NCBI RefSeq assembly: GCF_022968795.1
Contig: NZ_JALJRB010000004.1
Location: forward strand, 1 to 64,000
Direction of reading: 5' to 3'
DNA length: 64,000 nt
Source of the DNA: Desulfatitalea alkaliphila
GTDB lineage: Bacteria > Desulfobacterota > Desulfobacteria > Desulfobacterales > Desulfosarcinaceae
Shown here piece by piece: positions 4,851 to 13,104 of the stretch (position 1 is its first letter; each line of letters starts with the position of its first letter). The notes beneath the pieces are model-generated. The model saw only the letters and a program-made list of their open reading frames with translations, ran no database searches and had not been told where the DNA came from. Made by a program: the position numbers and the translations under genes.

Positions 4851-4880
4851 TTGACATCCCGCCAGCCCCCATTGTACGTG
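4851..4880 (+). promoter_or_regulatory. Candidate promoter for the cobalamin riboswitch transcript
   Basis: TTGACA at 4851-4856 is a consensus -35 box. A weak -10 (TGTACG or similar) lies about 17 bases downstream. The position, just before the riboswitch aptamer, fits the start of the leader RNA. Confidence 0.35.
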
Positions 4881-5062
4881 CACCGTCAGTGCAAGTGGCC
4901 CATGGGCCTTCAAAGGGAAGACGGTGCGAAGCCGTCGCGGTCCCGCCGCCGTAACCGGGGACAAACGCCGCAACAACGCCACTGTCCGAGAGGATGGGAA
5001 GGCGCGGCAAGTAGAACGATCCGGAAGCCGGAAGACCTGCTGGCACACTCAACAACAGCTCC
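4880..5062 (+). ncRNA. Cobalamin (adenosylcobalamin) riboswitch aptamer
   Basis: The leader contains the conserved blocks of the cobalamin riboswitch in order. AAGGGAAG at 4913-4920 is followed by GGTGCGAAGCC, the core CGGTCCCGCCGCCGTAACC with the GGGGA that follows it, GCCACTG near 4978 followed by GGGAAGGCG, and finally the B12 box AAGCCGGAAGACCTGC at 5025-5040. The aptamer binds coenzyme B12. An intrinsic terminator follows at 5114-5150, so ligand binding most likely lowers expression of the downstream B12 operon by premature termination. Confidence 0.95.
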
Positions 5063-5237: not shown

Positions 5238-5251
5238 TTGGGGTGGTGGTG

Positions 5252-7843
5252 ATGGGTTTTGCGCATGGTGGGTATGTCAGGGCGTTGGCGGCGGCGGCCG
5301 GGTGCGCTGTGGAGGAGCTGCTGGATTTCAGCGCCAATATGAACCCATTGGGTCCCCCGGAGGGGTTGCGGGGGGTGGTGGCCGCTCATTTGGGGGAGGT
5401 GGTGCACTATCCCGATCCTTTGTGCCAGGCGTTGCGCGAGTCCGTCGCGGGGCGGTTCGGGATCGGGCCGGACGAGGTGGTGCCGGGCAATGGTTCGACG
5501 GAATTGATTTACGCTTTGCCGCGGGCCCTGGGGGTGCGCCGGGCTGTTTTGCCGGTGCCGGGCTACATCGATTACGGGGTTGCCGCCGAAAGGGCCGGGG
5601 TGGTGGTGGAGACGGTGCCATTGGCGGCGGACCGGGGCTTTGCCATGGATTGGGATGCCTTGGCGGATCGGTTGCGGGGCGATGAGATGGTGGTGATCGG
5701 CCGGCCCTCCAATCCAGCGGGCGTTCTGTGTGATGGGGCGGAATTGGTGGCCCTGGCTGACCGTTTCCCGGACACCTGGTTTGTGGTGGACGAGGCGTTC
5801 GTCGACTTCGCGGGTGACGACCCATCCCTGATCCGCTGTGGCCGGCCCAATGTGGTGGTGTTGCGCTCCATGACCAAGTTCTATGCGATTCCCGGCATCC
5901 GGTTGGGCTACGCTGTGGCAGCCGAAGCGGTGGCGCGACGTTTGAACGAGCAGTTGCCGCCCTGGTCGGTGGGTTCCCTGGCCCAAGCGGTCGGCGCGGC
6001 GTTGGTGACGGAAACGGATTATGCCGCGCGCAGCCGCGCGGCGGTCGCCCGGCTGCGGGCGGCACTGCAGGTAGGGTTGGCGGCGTTGCCGGGTTTGCGG
6101 CCGCTGCCGTCGGCGGCCAACTACCTGCTGGTGCGCATGGCGCGCGGCGGCATGGATGCCCGCGATCTGGCAAAGGCACTGCTGCAGCGGCGTCTCGCCA
6201 TTCGTGTGTGTGACAACTATGCGGGTTTGGACCGTTACTATTTCCGGGTGGCGGTTCGTACCGATGCGGAGAACGAAAGGTTGCTGGCGCTGCTGTCCGA
6301 GGTGCTCGGCCCGGCGGAGCGGCCCGTCCCGGTTCGGCGCCGGGTGCGTCCCGCACCGGCGGTGATGTTTCAGGGGGTTTCCTCCAATGCGGGCAAGAGC
6401 GTGCTCACCGCTGCCTTTTGCCGCATTCTGCTGCAAGATGGCTACCGGGTGACGCCGTTCAAGGCCCAGAACATGTCGTTGAACTCTTTTGTGACCCGGG
6501 ATGGCGGCGAAATGGGACGTGCCCAGGTGGTGCAGGCCCAAGCCTGCCGCCTGGACCCCGATGTTCGCATGAACCCGGTGCTGCTCAAGCCCAACTCAGC
6601 CACGGGCGCCCAGGTGATCGTCATGGGCCGCCCGGTGGGCAACATGGATGTGGGGCGCTACATCGACTACAAGCCCCAAGCCTTTACGGCGGTGCGGGAG
6701 GCCTACGATGCCCTGGCCGCCGAGAGCGACGTGATGGTGCTGGAAGGGGCCGGCAGCCCAGCCGAGGTGAACCTCAAGCACCACGACATCGTCAACATGG
6801 CCATGGCCCGGCATGCGCAAGCACCGGTGCTGCTGGTGGGCGATATCGATCGGGGGGGCGTGTTCGCCGCCTTCGTGGGCACCATGGAGCTGCTCAGCGA
6901 GGCGGAGCGGCGCATGACCGCCGGATTCGTGATCAACCGTTTCCGGGGCCAACAGGCGCTGTTGGGGGACGCCATGGACCGCACCGCCCGCCACACCGGC
7001 TTGCCCACCTTCGGGGTGGTGCCTTACATCCCCGACCTGGGGCTGCCGGAGGAGGATTCGGTCAGTTTCAAATGCGGGGCGCAAGATCCAGCTGATCGGC
7101 GGGACGTGGATGGGGTGACCATTGCCGTGGTGGATTTGCCCCACATTTCCAACTTCACCGACATCGATTCCCTGCGCATCGAGCCGGACGTGCAGCTGCG
7201 CATCGTGCGCAGCGCAGCCGATTTGGCGGCTGCCGACGCGGTGATTCTGCCGGGCAGCAAGAATGTGCCGGGCGATCTGCGCCACCTGCAGGACAACGGA
7301 ATGGCGGGGCGCTTGCTGGAACTGGTCCGGGCGGGCGACACGACCCTTGTGGGCATCTGCGGCGGTTTGCAGATGCTGGGCCGCACCATCGGCGATCCCT
7401 TTGCCTTGGAATCGTCCGGCGGCCCGGCGCCGATTCAGGGGTTGGGGCTGCTGCCGGTCGATACCGTATTGGCGTCGGAAAAGACCTTGCGTCTCGTTCG
7501 GGCCCGCCATGTGGCTTCCGGGTTGTCCCTTCAGGGCTACGAGATCCATCACGGTCAGACCGTGGGCGACGGCGCGGCGCCGGCCGTGGTGCGGGAGGAC
7601 GGCGCCGCGGTGGGCTTCGACGGCTTCGGCGGCCGCATTTTCGGTACCTATCTGCACGGGCTGTTCGACAATGACGGATTCCGCCGTTGGTTCATCGACG
7701 ACCTGCGCCAACACCGCGGTCTGGTACCGCTGGGCAAGGTGCAGGCCCACTACGATATCGAACCGGCCCTGGATCGGCTGGCCGCCATTGTGCGCGCCAA
7801 CCTTGACGTGGCCGCGATTTACCGATGCATGGGGCTGCAATAG
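5252..7843 (+). CDS. CobD-CbiP fusion: threonine-phosphate decarboxylase + cobyric acid synthase
   Basis: One 863-residue reading frame carries two B12 enzymes. Residues 1-365 are a HisC-like PLP enzyme ([16 protein letters not shown] at the start, the PLP lysine in [15 protein letters not shown] near residue 206), matching CobD, which makes aminopropanol phosphate from threonine phosphate. From about residue 370 comes CbiP/CobQ: P-loop [15 protein letters not shown], then [13 protein letters not shown], and a C-terminal glutamine amidotransferase with the nucleophile in [11 protein letters not shown] and YEIHHGQT. CbiP amidates adenosylcobyrinate diamide at four side chains. Both products feed the reaction of CbiB, the next gene. 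ATG at 5252 is preferred; three GTG codons lie just upstream. The stop abuts the cbiB ATG. Confidence 0.93.
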
Positions 7844-8806: not shown

Positions 8807-10197
8807 GCGTCCATGTGCCCCGTCTCCTGGTGGCCGGCGCCCAGAGCGGCAGCGGCAAGACCAGTCTGACCCTGGCGCTGGTGGCGGCCCTGGTGCGACG
8901 CGGGCTCAAGGTGCAGACCTTCAAGGTCGGGCCCGATTTCCTCGACCCCACCTACCTGGCCATTGCATCGGGCCGACCCTGTTACAACCTGGATGGTTGG
9001 ATGTGCGGCCGGGCCTACGTGGCGGCACTGTTCGCCCGCGCCGCCGCCGATGCCGACATCGCCGTGATCGAAGGGGTGATGGGACTGTTCGACGGCGCCC
9101 GTCCCGACGGCCCGGACGGCAGTACGGCCCAGATCGCCTGCTGGCTGCGGGCGCCGGTGCTTCTGGCGGTCAATGTCCACGGCATGGCGCGCAGCATCGC
9201 CGCCTTGGTGGCCGGGTATGCGGGGTTCGAAAAAGGGGTGGCCATCGGCGGAGTGATCGCCAATTTTTGCGGTTCCGCGGGGCATGCCGACATTCTGCGG
9301 CAAGCCTTGGTCGCGGCTTGCCAACCGGCCTTGCTGGGTGCGCTGCCCCGCAACGGTTTGCCGGAAATCCCGCGCCGGCACTTGGGGCTGGTTTCCGCGG
9401 ATCCACAAACCAATTGCGACACTGCTCTATTGGACCGTTTTGCCGACGCGGCCGAAGCACACATGGACATGGCGGGCATCATCGCCATGGCCGCCGGTGC
9501 GGCGCCCCTGACCCCGGCCACCGACCCTTTTCACCGAACGGTGTCCGATGCCCATCCATGCCTGGCGGTGGCGCGGGATGCGGCCTTTCACTTTTACTAC
9601 CCCGACCTGTTGGAAATTCTCGAATCGCGCGGTTGCGCCATTCGTTACTTCTCACCGTTGCTGGACCATCAGGTGCCCGTCGATGCCGATGCCCTATACA
9701 TCGGCGGCGGTTATCCCGAACTGTACGCCGACCAATTGGCCGCCAACGGCGCCATGCTCGAAAGCATACGCGCCTTTGCCGGTGCCGGGCGACCGGTCTA
9801 TGCCGAGTGCGGCGGACTGATCTATCTGTCCCGCTCCCTCGAAACCCTGGACGGCCGCCGGCATCGCCTGGCGGCCGTGTTACCGGCCGACACCCGCATG
9901 CGCCGGCGCAAGCGGCACCTCGGCTACGTTAACGTCACCCTGCGCCGGGACACCCTTTGGGGCAAGGCCGGCGACACCCTGCGCGGCCACGCCTTTCACT
10001 ACTCCGAACTGCTCAACGATCCGGCCGAAGCGCCCGGTTGGCATCACGCCTATCATCTGACCGGTCGCAGCAACCCGTCCGGCTGGCTGGAAGGCTATGG
10101 GAGGGGGAATGTGTTGGCCAGTTATGTGCATTTGCATTGGGGGGGAAGTGATGGGGTGGTGGAGAGGTTTGTAGATAGTTTAAAGTTTAAAGTATAA
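8803..10197 (+). CDS. cbiA: Cobyrinate a,c-diamide synthase CbiA
   Basis: The 464-residue protein is a glutamine-dependent amidotransferase that amidates the a and c carboxylates of cobyrinate. The N-terminal P-loop domain has GAQSGSGKTSLTLAL, then FKVGPDFLDPTYL and YNLDGWM, typical of CbiA. The C-terminal triad-type amidotransferase domain has ALYIGGGYPELYAD and the nucleophile Cys in VYAECGGLIYLS. The ATG at 8803 is fixed by an ATGA overlap with cbiB and by GGGAGG at 8791-8796; the frame is open another 106 codons upstream. The last nine codons (VDSLKFKV and stop) lie inside the AT-rich repeat that begins at about 10171, so the C terminus was modified by repeat insertion. Confidence 0.95.
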   Translation: MSVHVPRLLVAGAQSGSGKTSLTLALVAALVRRGLKVQTFKVGPDFLDPTYLAIASGRPCYNLDGWMCGRAYVAALFARAAADADIAVIEGVMGLFDGARPDGPDGSTAQIACWLRAPVLLAVNVHGMARSIAALVAGYAGFEKGVAIGGVIANFCGSAGHADILRQALVAACQPALLGALPRNGLPEIPRRHLGLVSADPQTNCDTALLDRFADAAEAHMDMAGIIAMAAGAAPLTPATDPFHRTVSDAHPCLAVARDAAFHFYYPDLLEILESRGCAIRYFSPLLDHQVPVDADALYIGGGYPELYADQLAANGAMLESIRAFAGAGRPVYAECGGLIYLSRSLETLDGRRHRLAAVLPADTRMRRRKRHLGYVNVTLRRDTLWGKAGDTLRGHAFHYSELLNDPAEAPGWHHAYHLTGRSNPSGWLEGYGRGNVLASYVHLHWGGSDGVVERFVDSLKFKV

Positions 10198-10596
10198 AGT
10201 TTAAAGCAATGAATTCTATCATTTATATGTGGTGTGGGGGGAGATGATGATGTTGAAGGGCGACTTGCCATAAGTGTCAGGTAGCAGGGGAGTAAAGGAG
10301 TGGCGTGGTGATAATATCCTGCGCAGCCAACAAGCGGTGTGGTTATCCATAAGGGACAGGGTTGTAGTGGATATCGGAGATGCGCAATACTGCCATGAAG
10401 CCCACTGTTTCAGCATTGGAAGACATATCCAACGGTATTTCATGGCACCAAAGGCAGGAGAATGAGACTTTGGCACCTTTCATCGCGTGAGCGTCATGGA
10501 CCCACACACAACATATTCATCCACCCTCTAATCGGCAGAATACCTTAACTTTACACTTAAAACTTTAAACTTAAAACTTTAAACTCAATAAAGGAA
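10171..10596. repeat. AT-rich repeat element with ATAGTTTAAAG-type ends inside the B12 operon
   Basis: The left end, GTAGATAGTTTAAAG, is followed by direct TTTAAAG repeats to about 10206. The right end (10543-10585) is a run of CTTAAAACTTTAAA-type heptamers, so the ends are inverted with respect to each other. The 330-bp interior has lower GC than its surroundings and holds only short frames (10219-10476 minus, 85 codons) without a recognised domain. A second, shorter copy with matching ends and a similar right flank (CAGAAT-x-CCTTAACTT) lies at 44476-44597. It separates cbiA from cbiC-cbiX and provides the cbiA stop codon. Confidence 0.7.
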
Positions 10597-10601
10597 CTCC
10601 C

Positions 10602-11798
10602 ATGCCCCCCAAACCCTTGATCCACAATCTTCTGTTTCACCCTATCGATGGCCCAACCATAGAACAGCACTCCTTTGATGCCATCGACCGTGAGGCGCCG
10701 GCGCATGATTTTACTGCTGCACAGTGGCCGGTGGTGCGGCGCATGATTCACACCACGGCCGATTTCGGGTTGATCGAGGCGGTGCGGTTTTCCGACGATG
10801 CCGTCACGGCCGGTTGCAAGGCCCTTGGCGAGGGGCGGCCGATCTATACCGATGCGCAGATGATCCGTTCCGGTATTTCCACGGTGCGTCTGCGGGCCGT
10901 TAATCAGGGATACGATCGGACCCGGATTCACTGTCATGTCGCCGATCCGGACGTGGCCGCGGCGGCGCGGGAGAGCGGTCTGCCGCGGGCCGTGGCCGCC
11001 ATCCGCAAAGCGCGCGGGATGCTGGACGGGGCCATCGTGGCCGTGGGCAATTCGCCCACGGCATTGCTGGAGCTAAACCGCATGATCATCGAGGAGGGGG
11101 TGCGGCCGGCCCTGGTGATCGGCATGCCGGTGGGATTCGTGCATGTGGTGGAGAGCAAGGAGGAGTTGATGGGGCTGGACCTGCCCTGGATCGTGGTCCG
11201 TGGCCGGCGGGGGGGCAGCCCCCTGGCGGTGAGTGTGATCCATGCGTTGTGCGTCCTGGCGGAGGCGGAGCGGACCGAAGCGGCCTGCGATGCGGCTGCG
11301 GCGGCGGACGATTTCGATGCCGTGATTCTTTTGGGCCACGGCAGCCGCGTGCCGGATGCGGGTCAGTCCATGCAGCGGGTGGCGGCGGCACTGCAAGAAG
11401 CCGGACGTTACCCCCGGGTGGCCTGCTGCAACATGTCGCGCTTGGGTCCCCATTTCGAGGAAACCTTCACGGCCATGGTGCGGCAGGGGGCGCGGCAGGT
11501 GCTGGTGCTGCCCTATTTCCTGCACGATGGACTGCACATTCGTCTGGATATTCCGGCCATGATGCAGGCGGCAGCAGCGCAGCATCCCGATGTCGGGCTG
11601 GTGTTCGGCCCCAACCTGGGTTTCGACCCGTTGCTGGTGGAGTTGGTCGAACGGCGCATCGCCCAGTCCCGGGGATTGGCGGATGTGCGGCAGTTGCGAC
11701 TGCCGGAGGAGGACGATTATCCAGTGCCGCCCGGACAGTGCGCCTTCGTGGCCATGCCGCCGGAAGAGGCGCAGCGGTGGAAGTCAAAGCAGTCTTAA
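10602..11798 (+). CDS. CbiC-CbiX fusion: cobalt-precorrin-8 methylmutase + sirohydrochlorin cobaltochelatase
   Basis: The 398-residue protein contains two enzymes. Residues 1-215 are CbiC/CobH: the family pattern RMIHTTADFGL, then IYTDAQMIRSGI, AVGNSPTALLEL and PALVIGMPVGFVHVVESKEEL. This half moves the C-11 methyl to C-12 to form cobyrinate. From about residue 230 comes a short-form CbiX chelatase: AVILLGHGSR and VLVLPYFLHDGLHIRLDIP carry the metal-binding histidines. It inserts Co2+ into sirohydrochlorin at the start of the pathway. First and near-last ring steps are thus joined in one polypeptide. The start ATG at 10602 follows the AT-rich repeat, with AAAGGAA seven bases ahead. Confidence 0.93.
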   Translation: MPPKPLIHNLLFHPIDGPTIEQHSFDAIDREAPAHDFTAAQWPVVRRMIHTTADFGLIEAVRFSDDAVTAGCKALGEGRPIYTDAQMIRSGISTVRLRAVNQGYDRTRIHCHVADPDVAAAARESGLPRAVAAIRKARGMLDGAIVAVGNSPTALLELNRMIIEEGVRPALVIGMPVGFVHVVESKEELMGLDLPWIVVRGRRGGSPLAVSVIHALCVLAEAERTEAACDAAAAADDFDAVILLGHGSRVPDAGQSMQRVAAALQEAGRYPRVACCNMSRLGPHFEETFTAMVRQGARQVLVLPYFLHDGLHIRLDIPAMMQAAAAQHPDVGLVFGPNLGFDPLLVELVERRIAQSRGLADVRQLRLPEEDDYPVPPGQCAFVAMPPEEAQRWKSKQS

Positions 11799-11873
11799 AT
11801 GGTTGGACAAGGTGTGCCTTGGTGGGGTGCGCTGTTGCGCCGCTTGGCGTTTGTCGGAAAAGGAGGACTTGGT

Positions 11874-12020
11874 ATGCGAAGTGTTGTCAGGAAGCCTTGG
11901 CCGTCAATGACGGTGATGCTGCCGGCGGCGGGGTGGCTTGCGCCGGGTCGGGCCCATGCCATGCACATCGCCGAGGGTATTCTACCGGCGGGGGGAGGGA
12001 CGACGGGGCACAATGGCTGA
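11874..12020 (+). pseudogene. Truncated CbiM (cobalt ECF transporter S component) N-terminal stub
   Basis: A 48-residue frame starts at ATG 11874 behind an excellent AAAGGAGG (11859-11866). It encodes a basic start, a hydrophobic stretch and then GRAHAMHIAEGILPAGGG. M-H-I-x-E-G-x-L-P is the hallmark start of mature CbiM; its N-terminal histidine coordinates cobalt. The reading frame then ends in TGA at 12018-12020, eight codons after the motif, where a normal CbiM continues for about 200 residues of membrane segments. The remainder of cbiM appears deleted and cbiD begins inside the stub at 12013. It could survive only as a leader that couples translation into cbiD. Confidence 0.7.
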
Positions 12021-13104
12021 GCATCGCTGGGGATACACGACCGGCGCCTGTGCCGCCGCCGCCGCCAAGGCGGCTTTGCAGGTGCTTTGCGGGATCGCCG
12101 AACCGCCGCCTGTTGTGTGCCTGACTTTTCCCGGCGGCCGCCGGCACACCTTGCCCCTGGCCTTTGTGCGGGCCACCGCCGGGGGGGCGGAGGCCGGGGT
12201 GGTCAAGGACGCGGGGGACGATCCCGATGTGACCCACGGCGCCTTGGTAACCGCCCACGTGTGCTGGACCAATGGCGCAGAGATGGTGTTTCGTGCCGGC
12301 GAGGGAGTGGGTACGGTGACCAAGCCGGGTTTGTCCATCGCGCCGGGCGAGCCGGCCATCAACTCCGGCCCCCGCCGCATGATCCGCCGCGCACTGGCGG
12401 AGGTGAGCGACCGGCCGGTGCAGGTCACCATCGGCATTGCCGGCGGTCGCCAACTGGCTGCCAAGACCTTCAATCCCCGTCTGGGGATTGAGAACGGCCT
12501 GTCGGTGCTGGGCACCACCGGCCGGGTGCGCCCCTTCAGCTGCGCCGCGCTGCGCTCCGCTTTAGTGTGCACCCTGGATGTGGCATGGGCTTGCGGGGTG
12601 CGTGCCCCGGTGCTGGTGCCGGGTCATATCGGTGAACAGGCGGCCCGTTGCCATTTGCAAACCACCCCCGAACAGGTCCTCGAGGTGGGCAACGAATGGG
12701 GATTTGTGCTTGGGCGTCTGGTGCGCTACCCCTTCGAGCGCTTGCTGTTATTCGGCCATCCGGGCAAGTTGGCCAAGTTGGCCGACGGCCAGTGGGACAC
12801 CCACTCCGCCCGTTCCACCAGCCCGGTGGCGGCGGTGCGGCGTATCGCGCAACCGTTGCTGGCGGCGCCGCTGCCCGACAGCCCCACCACCGAAGGCGTC
12901 TTCGGCGCTCTGGCGCCGCATGAACGCCGCCGGGCGGCCGAGGCGGTGGCCGCCGCCGTGGCTGCGGCCGTGGCGGAGAAGATCGGCGCCCGGTGGCCGG
13001 TGGCGGTGGTGTTGGTGGATATGAAGGGCGGGTTGTTGGGGGCGGTCGGTCAGTGGCAAAGATGGCGTCCGCGGCAATCGCCGAAGGCCGCGGAGGGTGC
13101 TTGA
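12013..13104 (+). CDS. cbiD: Cobalt-precorrin-5B C1-methyltransferase CbiD
   Basis: The 363-residue protein is CbiD, the SAM-dependent C-1 methyltransferase of the anaerobic pathway. The conserved N terminus is RWGYTTGACAAAAAKAAL. VTKPGLSIAPGEPAINSGPRRMI and GIENGLSVLGTTGRVRPFS are also family signatures, as is LLFGHPGKLAKLADG. Family length is about 360-380. The ATG at 12013 is preceded by GGGAGGG at 11993-11999 and overlaps the stop of the cbiM stub. cbiE follows after an 86-bp gap. Confidence 0.95.
   Translation: MAEHRWGYTTGACAAAAAKAALQVLCGIAEPPPVVCLTFPGGRRHTLPLAFVRATAGGAEAGVVKDAGDDPDVTHGALVTAHVCWTNGAEMVFRAGEGVGTVTKPGLSIAPGEPAINSGPRRMIRRALAEVSDRPVQVTIGIAGGRQLAAKTFNPRLGIENGLSVLGTTGRVRPFSCAALRSALVCTLDVAWACGVRAPVLVPGHIGEQAARCHLQTTPEQVLEVGNEWGFVLGRLVRYPFERLLLFGHPGKLAKLADGQWDTHSARSTSPVAAVRRIAQPLLAAPLPDSPTTEGVFGALAPHERRRAAEAVAAAVAAAVAEKIGARWPVAVVLVDMKGGLLGAVGQWQRWRPRQSPKAAEGA

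Follow-up and report, generated by a model that had tools for sequence, protein, structure and literature searches.

A cbiM-cbiO fusion frame ahead of cbiD in Desulfatitalea alkaliphila as the probable scar of a cbiMNQO deletion, with a candidate replacement importer

Background

CbiM is the S component of the ECF cobalt transporter, and translational coupling at overlapping stop and start codons is a known arrangement; both bear on a short frame in the vitamin B12 operon of Desulfatitalea alkaliphila. This frame, hereafter the stub, resembles the group I ECF cobalt transporter CbiMNQO, as kept at the locus of a close relative (L005), in that its first 40 codons correspond to the cbiM start, its tail corresponds to the cbiO end, and its place in the operon is the same; it differs in lacking the transmembrane and ATPase parts, and it cannot make a transporter. 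Similarly, it resembles coupled gene pairs in its 8-nt overlap with a downstream gene, cbiD, that has a poor ribosome site of its own, whereas the upstream partner here would be the remnant of a deletion rather than a working gene, and the coupling is putative.

Two further systems bear on cobalt supply in this genome. Zhang et al. 2009 (PMC2667541) describe, in five proteobacteria, NikK1ML1QO operons that adjoin B12 genes or follow B12 riboswitches, and interpret them as recently evolved Co uptake. A solitary gene on another contig of the D. alkaliphila genome (C23) shares with them an S component grouped as NikM-type in association with B12 control; however, whole operons are concerned there, and here it is a single duplicated S-component gene, with a nikMLQ copy kept elsewhere. 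For BioMNY and two cobalt transporters, S components are reported to take up substrate without A and T units (PMC3246461), and the C23 metal S component may likewise work alone. A lone duplicated gene under a riboswitch, in a genome that lacks cbiMNQO, goes beyond those descriptions (PMC2667541; PMC3246461). Within the open-access literature, no paper was found on a solitary CbiM and cobalt.

The stub itself is unremarkable in kind, being a deletion scar, though its junction is instructive. This natural deletion in a vitamin B12 operon can be compared with a closely related intact locus and is accompanied by a candidate replacement; the stub also offers a simple test of how far operon genes depend on coupling to the preceding gene.

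The short frame between cbiC-cbiX and cbiD

The window, that is, the whole stretch of 64,000 nucleotides analyzed, carries a cob operon headed by a cobalamin riboswitch (Table 1). Seven of its eight scanned cob proteins score above the curated NCBIfam cut-off for one model or more; the remaining one, the cbiC-cbiX fusion product, lies below the NCBIfam cut-offs, yet far above those of Pfam. Directly before cbiD stands the stub, a frame of 48 codons whose translated product is MRSVVRKPWPSMTVMLPAAGWLAPGRAHAMHIAEGILPAGGGTTGHNG, followed by TGA. The original prediction had described a strong ribosome binding site, a hydrophobic start, the exact CbiM mature start and a stop overlapping the cbiD start. 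Most of this description held, for AAGGAGG lies 7 nt before the ATG, codons 30-38 read MHIAEGILP after a leader that ends in AHA, and the TGA (12018-12020) overlaps the ATG of cbiD (12013-12015) within ATGGCTGA. The hydrophobic start stood in part: a leader is present, but it is weak, with a peak 12-residue hydropathy of 1.45, the lowest of the 14 CbiM leaders compared (the others range from 1.75 to 3.13). The number of codons between MHIAEGILP and the stop, given earlier as eight, had to be corrected to ten.

Table 1. Positions of the stub, its parts and its operon neighbors in the window
Feature	Position	Strand	Evidence
Cobalamin riboswitch heading the cob operon with the scar	4876..5058	+	Rfam RF00174, 108.1 bits
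cbiC-cbiX fusion (precorrin-8X methylmutase + CbiX), upstream of the scar	10602..11798	+	Pfam CbiC 232.6 bits, CbiX 79.4 bits
Shine-Dalgarno AAGGAGG of the stub	11860..11866	+	7 nt before stub ATG; sequence
Stub, in-frame fusion of cbiM 5' end and cbiO 3' end	11874..12020	+	48 codons + stop; sequence comparison
cbiM-derived part of the stub: leader (29 codons) + MHIAEGILPAG	11874..11993	+	84/120 nt identical to L005 cbiM 1084-1203, ungapped
Junction stretch, 6 codons, fits neither side confidently	11994..12011	+	By-eye sequence comparison
cbiO-derived tail AAT GGC TGA	12012..12020	+	L005 cbiO ends CAT GGC TGA
8-nt overlap ATGGCTGA, stub stop / cbiD start	12013..12020	+	Identical to the cbiO/cbiD overlap of L005
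cbiD (cobalt-precorrin-5B C1-methyltransferase), 363 aa	12013..13104	+	TIGR00312 341.6 bits; Pfam CbiD 276.3 bits

A Pfam scan of the 48-residue product matched no family, and the CbiM domain PF01891, with its membrane helices, is absent; the stub peptide itself is probably without function. An intact Met-His start preceded by AHA might nevertheless suggest a secreted working peptide, in which signal cleavage would release 19 residues that bind cobalt or nickel, the more so as the first two residues of NikM/CbiM participate in substrate binding (PMC6828968). Against this stand the weakest leader of the 14, a tail that is the end of cbiO, the lack of any Pfam match, and the finding of no such frame in the 29 named relatives' loci, as far as these could be judged; such a peptide is accordingly regarded as very improbable.

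Comparison with the intact sister locus

The nearest relative found is Desulfatitalea sp. SH-MAG143, whose CbiD is 83% identical to that of the window. Between cbiC-X and cbiD, its locus L005 keeps an intact cbiM (mature start at 1171), a gene at the place of cbiN, cbiQ and cbiO; the cbiO gene ends CAT GGC TGA over the cbiD start, with the same overlap as in the window. Placed without gaps on the L005 cbiM start, the first 40 codons of the stub are identical at 84 of 120 nt, and the next best placement of these 120 nt in the 6.7-kb L005 contig reaches 59 on that strand and 51 on the opposite one. Since MHIxEGxL, moreover, occurs only once across the six frames of the 64-kb window, the match to the cbiM start is not a matter of chance. 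At its 3' end the stub agrees with the end of L005 cbiO over nine bases with one difference, and the 18 nt at the junction match neither the cbiM nor the cbiO parent.

Because the stub agrees at either end with the corresponding end of the L005 block, all four genes appear to have been lost, and not cbiM alone; by the coordinates of L005, the window lacks about 2.57 kb, between about 1204 and about 3777. The L005 CbiO and CbiQ proteins gave no tblastn match in the window, and genome-wide profile searches with PF01891 and PF02361 gave none on its contig. Sequence comparison thus indicates that a deletion of the cbiMNQO block almost certainly made the stub by fusing the cbiM start in frame to the last cbiO codons, the in-frame fusion following from the intact block and the same overlap in L005. 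The internal deletion of cbiM, and perhaps of cbiNQO, that had been proposed from the window alone is borne out. In the suggested comparison of the cbiC-cbiD junction with relatives, both L005 and a further genome of the genus, G001, keep the cbiM block there.

The scar is known from one genome only, a draft in 98 contigs, and a real cbiMNQO at the site might have been collapsed by the assembler. However, the site is interior to a 249-kb contig, the assembly holds no second copy of the operon cbiM or cbiQ, and the leader has diverged from that of L005 as under relaxed constraint, so that such an artefact is most improbable. The divergence affects 16 of the 29 leader residues and places prolines within the hydrophobic core, which reads as relaxed constraint on export. 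In the mature part, MHIAEGILPAG, four of the 11 codons differ silently from L005 and none is replaced; these silent changes may have arisen before the deletion. By way of reference, cbiD has 137 identical, 71 silent and 42 replaced codons among its first 250 in the same comparison.

Proposed coupling of cbiD to the stub

The ribosome site of cbiD is poor throughout: in the window GGAGG lies 14 nt before the ATG, L005 has a match of only four bases, and G001 has no match. Such sites would be in keeping with a cbiD coupled first to cbiO and, once the deletion had occurred, to the stub. The reading frame at the junction also matters for cbiD. In translation, frame 0 ends at 12018, on the start of cbiD; frame +1 continues without a stop into CbiD, to which it would fuse the leader; and frame +2 runs to a stop at 12122, about 110 nt into cbiD. 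As only one junction frame in three leaves cbiD unchanged, selection on cbiD would favor the frame observed.

In the proposed course of events, a deletion of about 2.57 kb would have removed nearly all of cbiM and cbiO, together with the whole of the cbiN-place gene and cbiQ, and would have fused cbiM, at about codon 40, in frame with the final codons of cbiO. Ribosomes starting at the strong cbiM site would still stop at the old cbiO stop on the cbiD start, and translation of cbiD would continue by termination-reinitiation. cbiD would thus still be translated after the deletion because the frame is kept up to the old cbiO stop that overlaps its start. On these features of the DNA, which fit the original suggestion that the stub drives cbiD translation, translational coupling of cbiD to the stub is judged reasonably likely. 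A deletion scar with a kept frame is, with good confidence, the main account of the locus, a confidence tempered by the NCBIfam naming of the remaining importer genes as cobalt transporters.

Alternatively, the same deletion may have left a neutral scar that is decaying and unneeded, with cbiD using its own weak site or a coupling from further upstream. The lowest leader hydropathy of the 14, the replaced leader residues and the prolines in the core are in keeping with decay, and in six of the 29 named, more distant loci cbiC-X immediately precedes cbiD with no stub between them, which also speaks against any general need for one. Decay is harder to reconcile with the retained AAGGAGG at 7 nt, a frame intact to the overlap and free of premature stops, the poor site of cbiD, and the absence of replacements in MHIAEGILPAG, though those changes may be older than the deletion. 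A neutral scar is therefore held to be possible but rather unlikely, and the scar with a kept frame is retained as the preferred reading below.

Distribution of the block among relatives

Among the 29 named CbiD loci, the gene directly before cbiD is cbiO in 18 and cbiC-X in six; two others have cbiQ and cbiO about 1.6 kb upstream of cbiD, and three are too short for the gene before cbiD to be judged. The block before cbiD is also kept within the genus Desulfatitalea by G001. In a CbiD tree of 27 rows, made up of the window, G001 and 25 named loci (L018, L031, L032 and L033 of the 29 being left out), the window and L005 are sisters with a support of 100/100. Mapped on this tree, the label of cbiO as the next gene changes six times, and 99 of 500 shuffles were equally low. 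These sequence comparisons are most simply read as a loss on the window's own branch, with a block that comes and goes across the wider relatives.

The original prediction had named the outcome that would speak against it, namely relatives that show the same short frame as an ancient conserved small protein with no cbiM at this place. The sister locus has cbiM, and no such short frame was found in the loci examined, as far as these could be judged. For the six loci with cbiC-X next to cbiD, a search of up to 700 nt before cbiD (268 nt in L030) found no MHxx[ED]G frame, and the same search recovered the window's own stub as a positive control. An ancient conserved small protein was accordingly rejected, with no sign of one in the 29 named loci, including those six, as far as their length allowed.

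The L005 gene at the place of cbiN has no NCBIfam or Pfam family match, so that "cbiN" is a name by position only, and the CbiN model PF02553 matched none of 11 genus genomes, including the block-keeping G001 and G004; its absence from the D. alkaliphila genome is uninformative because the model misses block-keeping genomes too.

As a side observation, the cob operon looks patchy in its distribution within the genus. Among the ten other genus genomes, only G001 and G004 have a CbiD match of at least 57% to that of the window; weaker matches of 38-42% occur in G002, G005 and G010, and five genomes have none at an E value of 0.001.

Possible remaining routes of cobalt supply

The D. alkaliphila assembly (5.07 Mb, 98 contigs, 99.68% complete) was searched for a complete cbiMNQO elsewhere, and none was found; a mere relocation of the block was rejected, the assembly containing no second copy of the operon cbiM or cbiQ. 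In terms of gene content, the claim that cobalt uptake must come from elsewhere is upheld by two other CbiM-family genes, on contigs C12 and C23, neither of the operon kind and one of them behind a cobalamin riboswitch. There are two CbiQ-family genes as well, one in a nik cluster and one beside bioY-like and ATPase frames. Both CbiM-family genes score far higher against each other than against the L005 operon CbiM, a comparison in which the "nik" reference is the solitary protein itself and which therefore groups the genes without testing their metal. Similarly, they stand apart from three operon-type CbiM rows in a tree. They are called NikM-type here on account of the genes that come after the C12 copy, one of the NikL family (156.4 bits) and a CbiQ/NikQ gene (146.9 bits). 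The C12 cluster is syntenic with G004. No ATPase gene was seen beside nikM-nikL-nikQ in D. alkaliphila, G004 or G001 (tblastn with the L005 CbiO; frames listed), and any nikO in these genomes would have to lie away from the cluster (L003 8291-10427 on C12 in D. alkaliphila; L124 and L125 in the others).

Cobalt would now most likely enter through these remaining CbiM/NikM-family genes, particularly the solitary gene on C23. Judged by gene content, control and constraint, this gene is the best candidate to replace the lost block in cobalt uptake, a proposal to which we give an even chance. Cobalt might instead be supplied by the nik-cluster genes alone or by another importer, with a different role for the C23 gene, and this we rate as a serious contender somewhat short of even. 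Against the NikM-type label, the best NCBIfam model for both genes is NF004905, "cobalt transporter CbiM" (245.4 bits for the C12 protein and 258.1 bits for the C23 protein, cut-off 173), and the nik-cluster copy might for this reason import cobalt alone; its neighbor is named "NikL family nickel/cobalt" in NCBIfam, and NikK1ML1QO operons are predicted for Co in five proteobacteria (PMC2667541). Of other importer families, a sample comprising NicO, CbtA and HupE/UreJ gave no match in D. alkaliphila, the one genome searched. However, the nik cluster has no cobalamin riboswitch, whereas the C23 gene has one and is under constraint.

The solitary riboswitch-linked gene on C23

The C23 gene begins with Met-His and matches PF01891 over residues 2-195 (182.7 bits), and a cobalamin riboswitch (RF00174, 109.7 bits) lies 127 nt before its start. 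Its neighbors, named by their reading frames, are a convergent signaling gene and an RND-type operon, and no energizing ATPase gene was found beside it. In the predicted fold, the spacer behind the riboswitch forms a strong hairpin followed by seven U (z of -4.1 over 156 nt), and the U run pairs in the predicted minimum with an A-rich stretch just before the start; a consensus terminator scan of the spacer returned no site.

The C23 and C12 paralogues are identical at 148 of 196 residues, as against 173 of 196 for C12 and its G004 counterpart. In the CbiM-family tree (41 rows, with a bootstrap that has not settled), these three group together at 94/99, with a weakly supported internal order (83/45), and the C23 branch is the longest (0.71 vs 0.17 and 0.11). 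Comparison of the C12 and C23 genes gave a dN/dS of 0.185 (NG86) or 0.119 (YN00), from which the C23 copy appears to be under constraint. The protein retains Met1-His2 and a His aligned with His67 of chain 4m5b, an ion-binding residue.

At 37 other distinct places of the C23 gene's group (genus hits, the C12 copy and the best 28 of many more order-level loci, L127 and L067 being the same place and counted once), no cobalamin riboswitch was found, mostly within 1.5 kb on either side. G004, at 91% completeness, has two CbiM-family genes, neither of the solitary riboswitch kind. No empty site is demonstrable for the C23 gene because its flanks are not conserved: the best genus match of its neighbor is at 57% in G006, the others being 34% or less, and a 4.2-kb stretch of G006 has neither the RND genes nor the solitary gene.

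Taken as a sequence of events, a nickel S-component gene, nikM, may have been duplicated in this lineage, and the copy may have come under a cobalamin riboswitch and become a solitary cobalt importer, whereupon cbiMNQO would have been dispensable and been deleted, with the stub kept as a ribosome lead-in for cbiD. This sequence is offered tentatively, as less likely than not, and the more so because both genes carry the name of cobalt transporters in NCBIfam and a nickel role for the parent copy is putative. If the C23 gene does import cobalt, a metal S component can change its control, and perhaps its metal, and can serve without A and T genes of its own adjoining; such a possible replacement raises the interest of the scar somewhat.

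Other features of the operon and genome

Six more cobalamin riboswitches are present in the D. alkaliphila genome (C23:86498-86713, C23:95225-95419, C1:256442-256643, C1:378426-378637, C24:32863-33049 and C32:8897-9089); some of the frames downstream of these, read by eye, resemble a CobN-like protein, TonB receptors, CobT and an aldehyde oxidoreductase. Within the window, a CobD-type decarboxylase and cobyric acid synthase are fused in a single frame of 866 aa (5243-7843). Between cbiA and cbiC-X, an insert of about 400 bp (10177-10590) is bounded by AT-rich inverted arms of 30 nt that are 90% complementary. The interior of the insert (about query 60-310) has only its self-match among the matches listed, and for the arms there are dozens more across the genome, with 60 listed and 40 scored out of 188 candidates; several of these form inverted pairs a few hundred bp apart. 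In G004, a short spacer takes the place of this insert.
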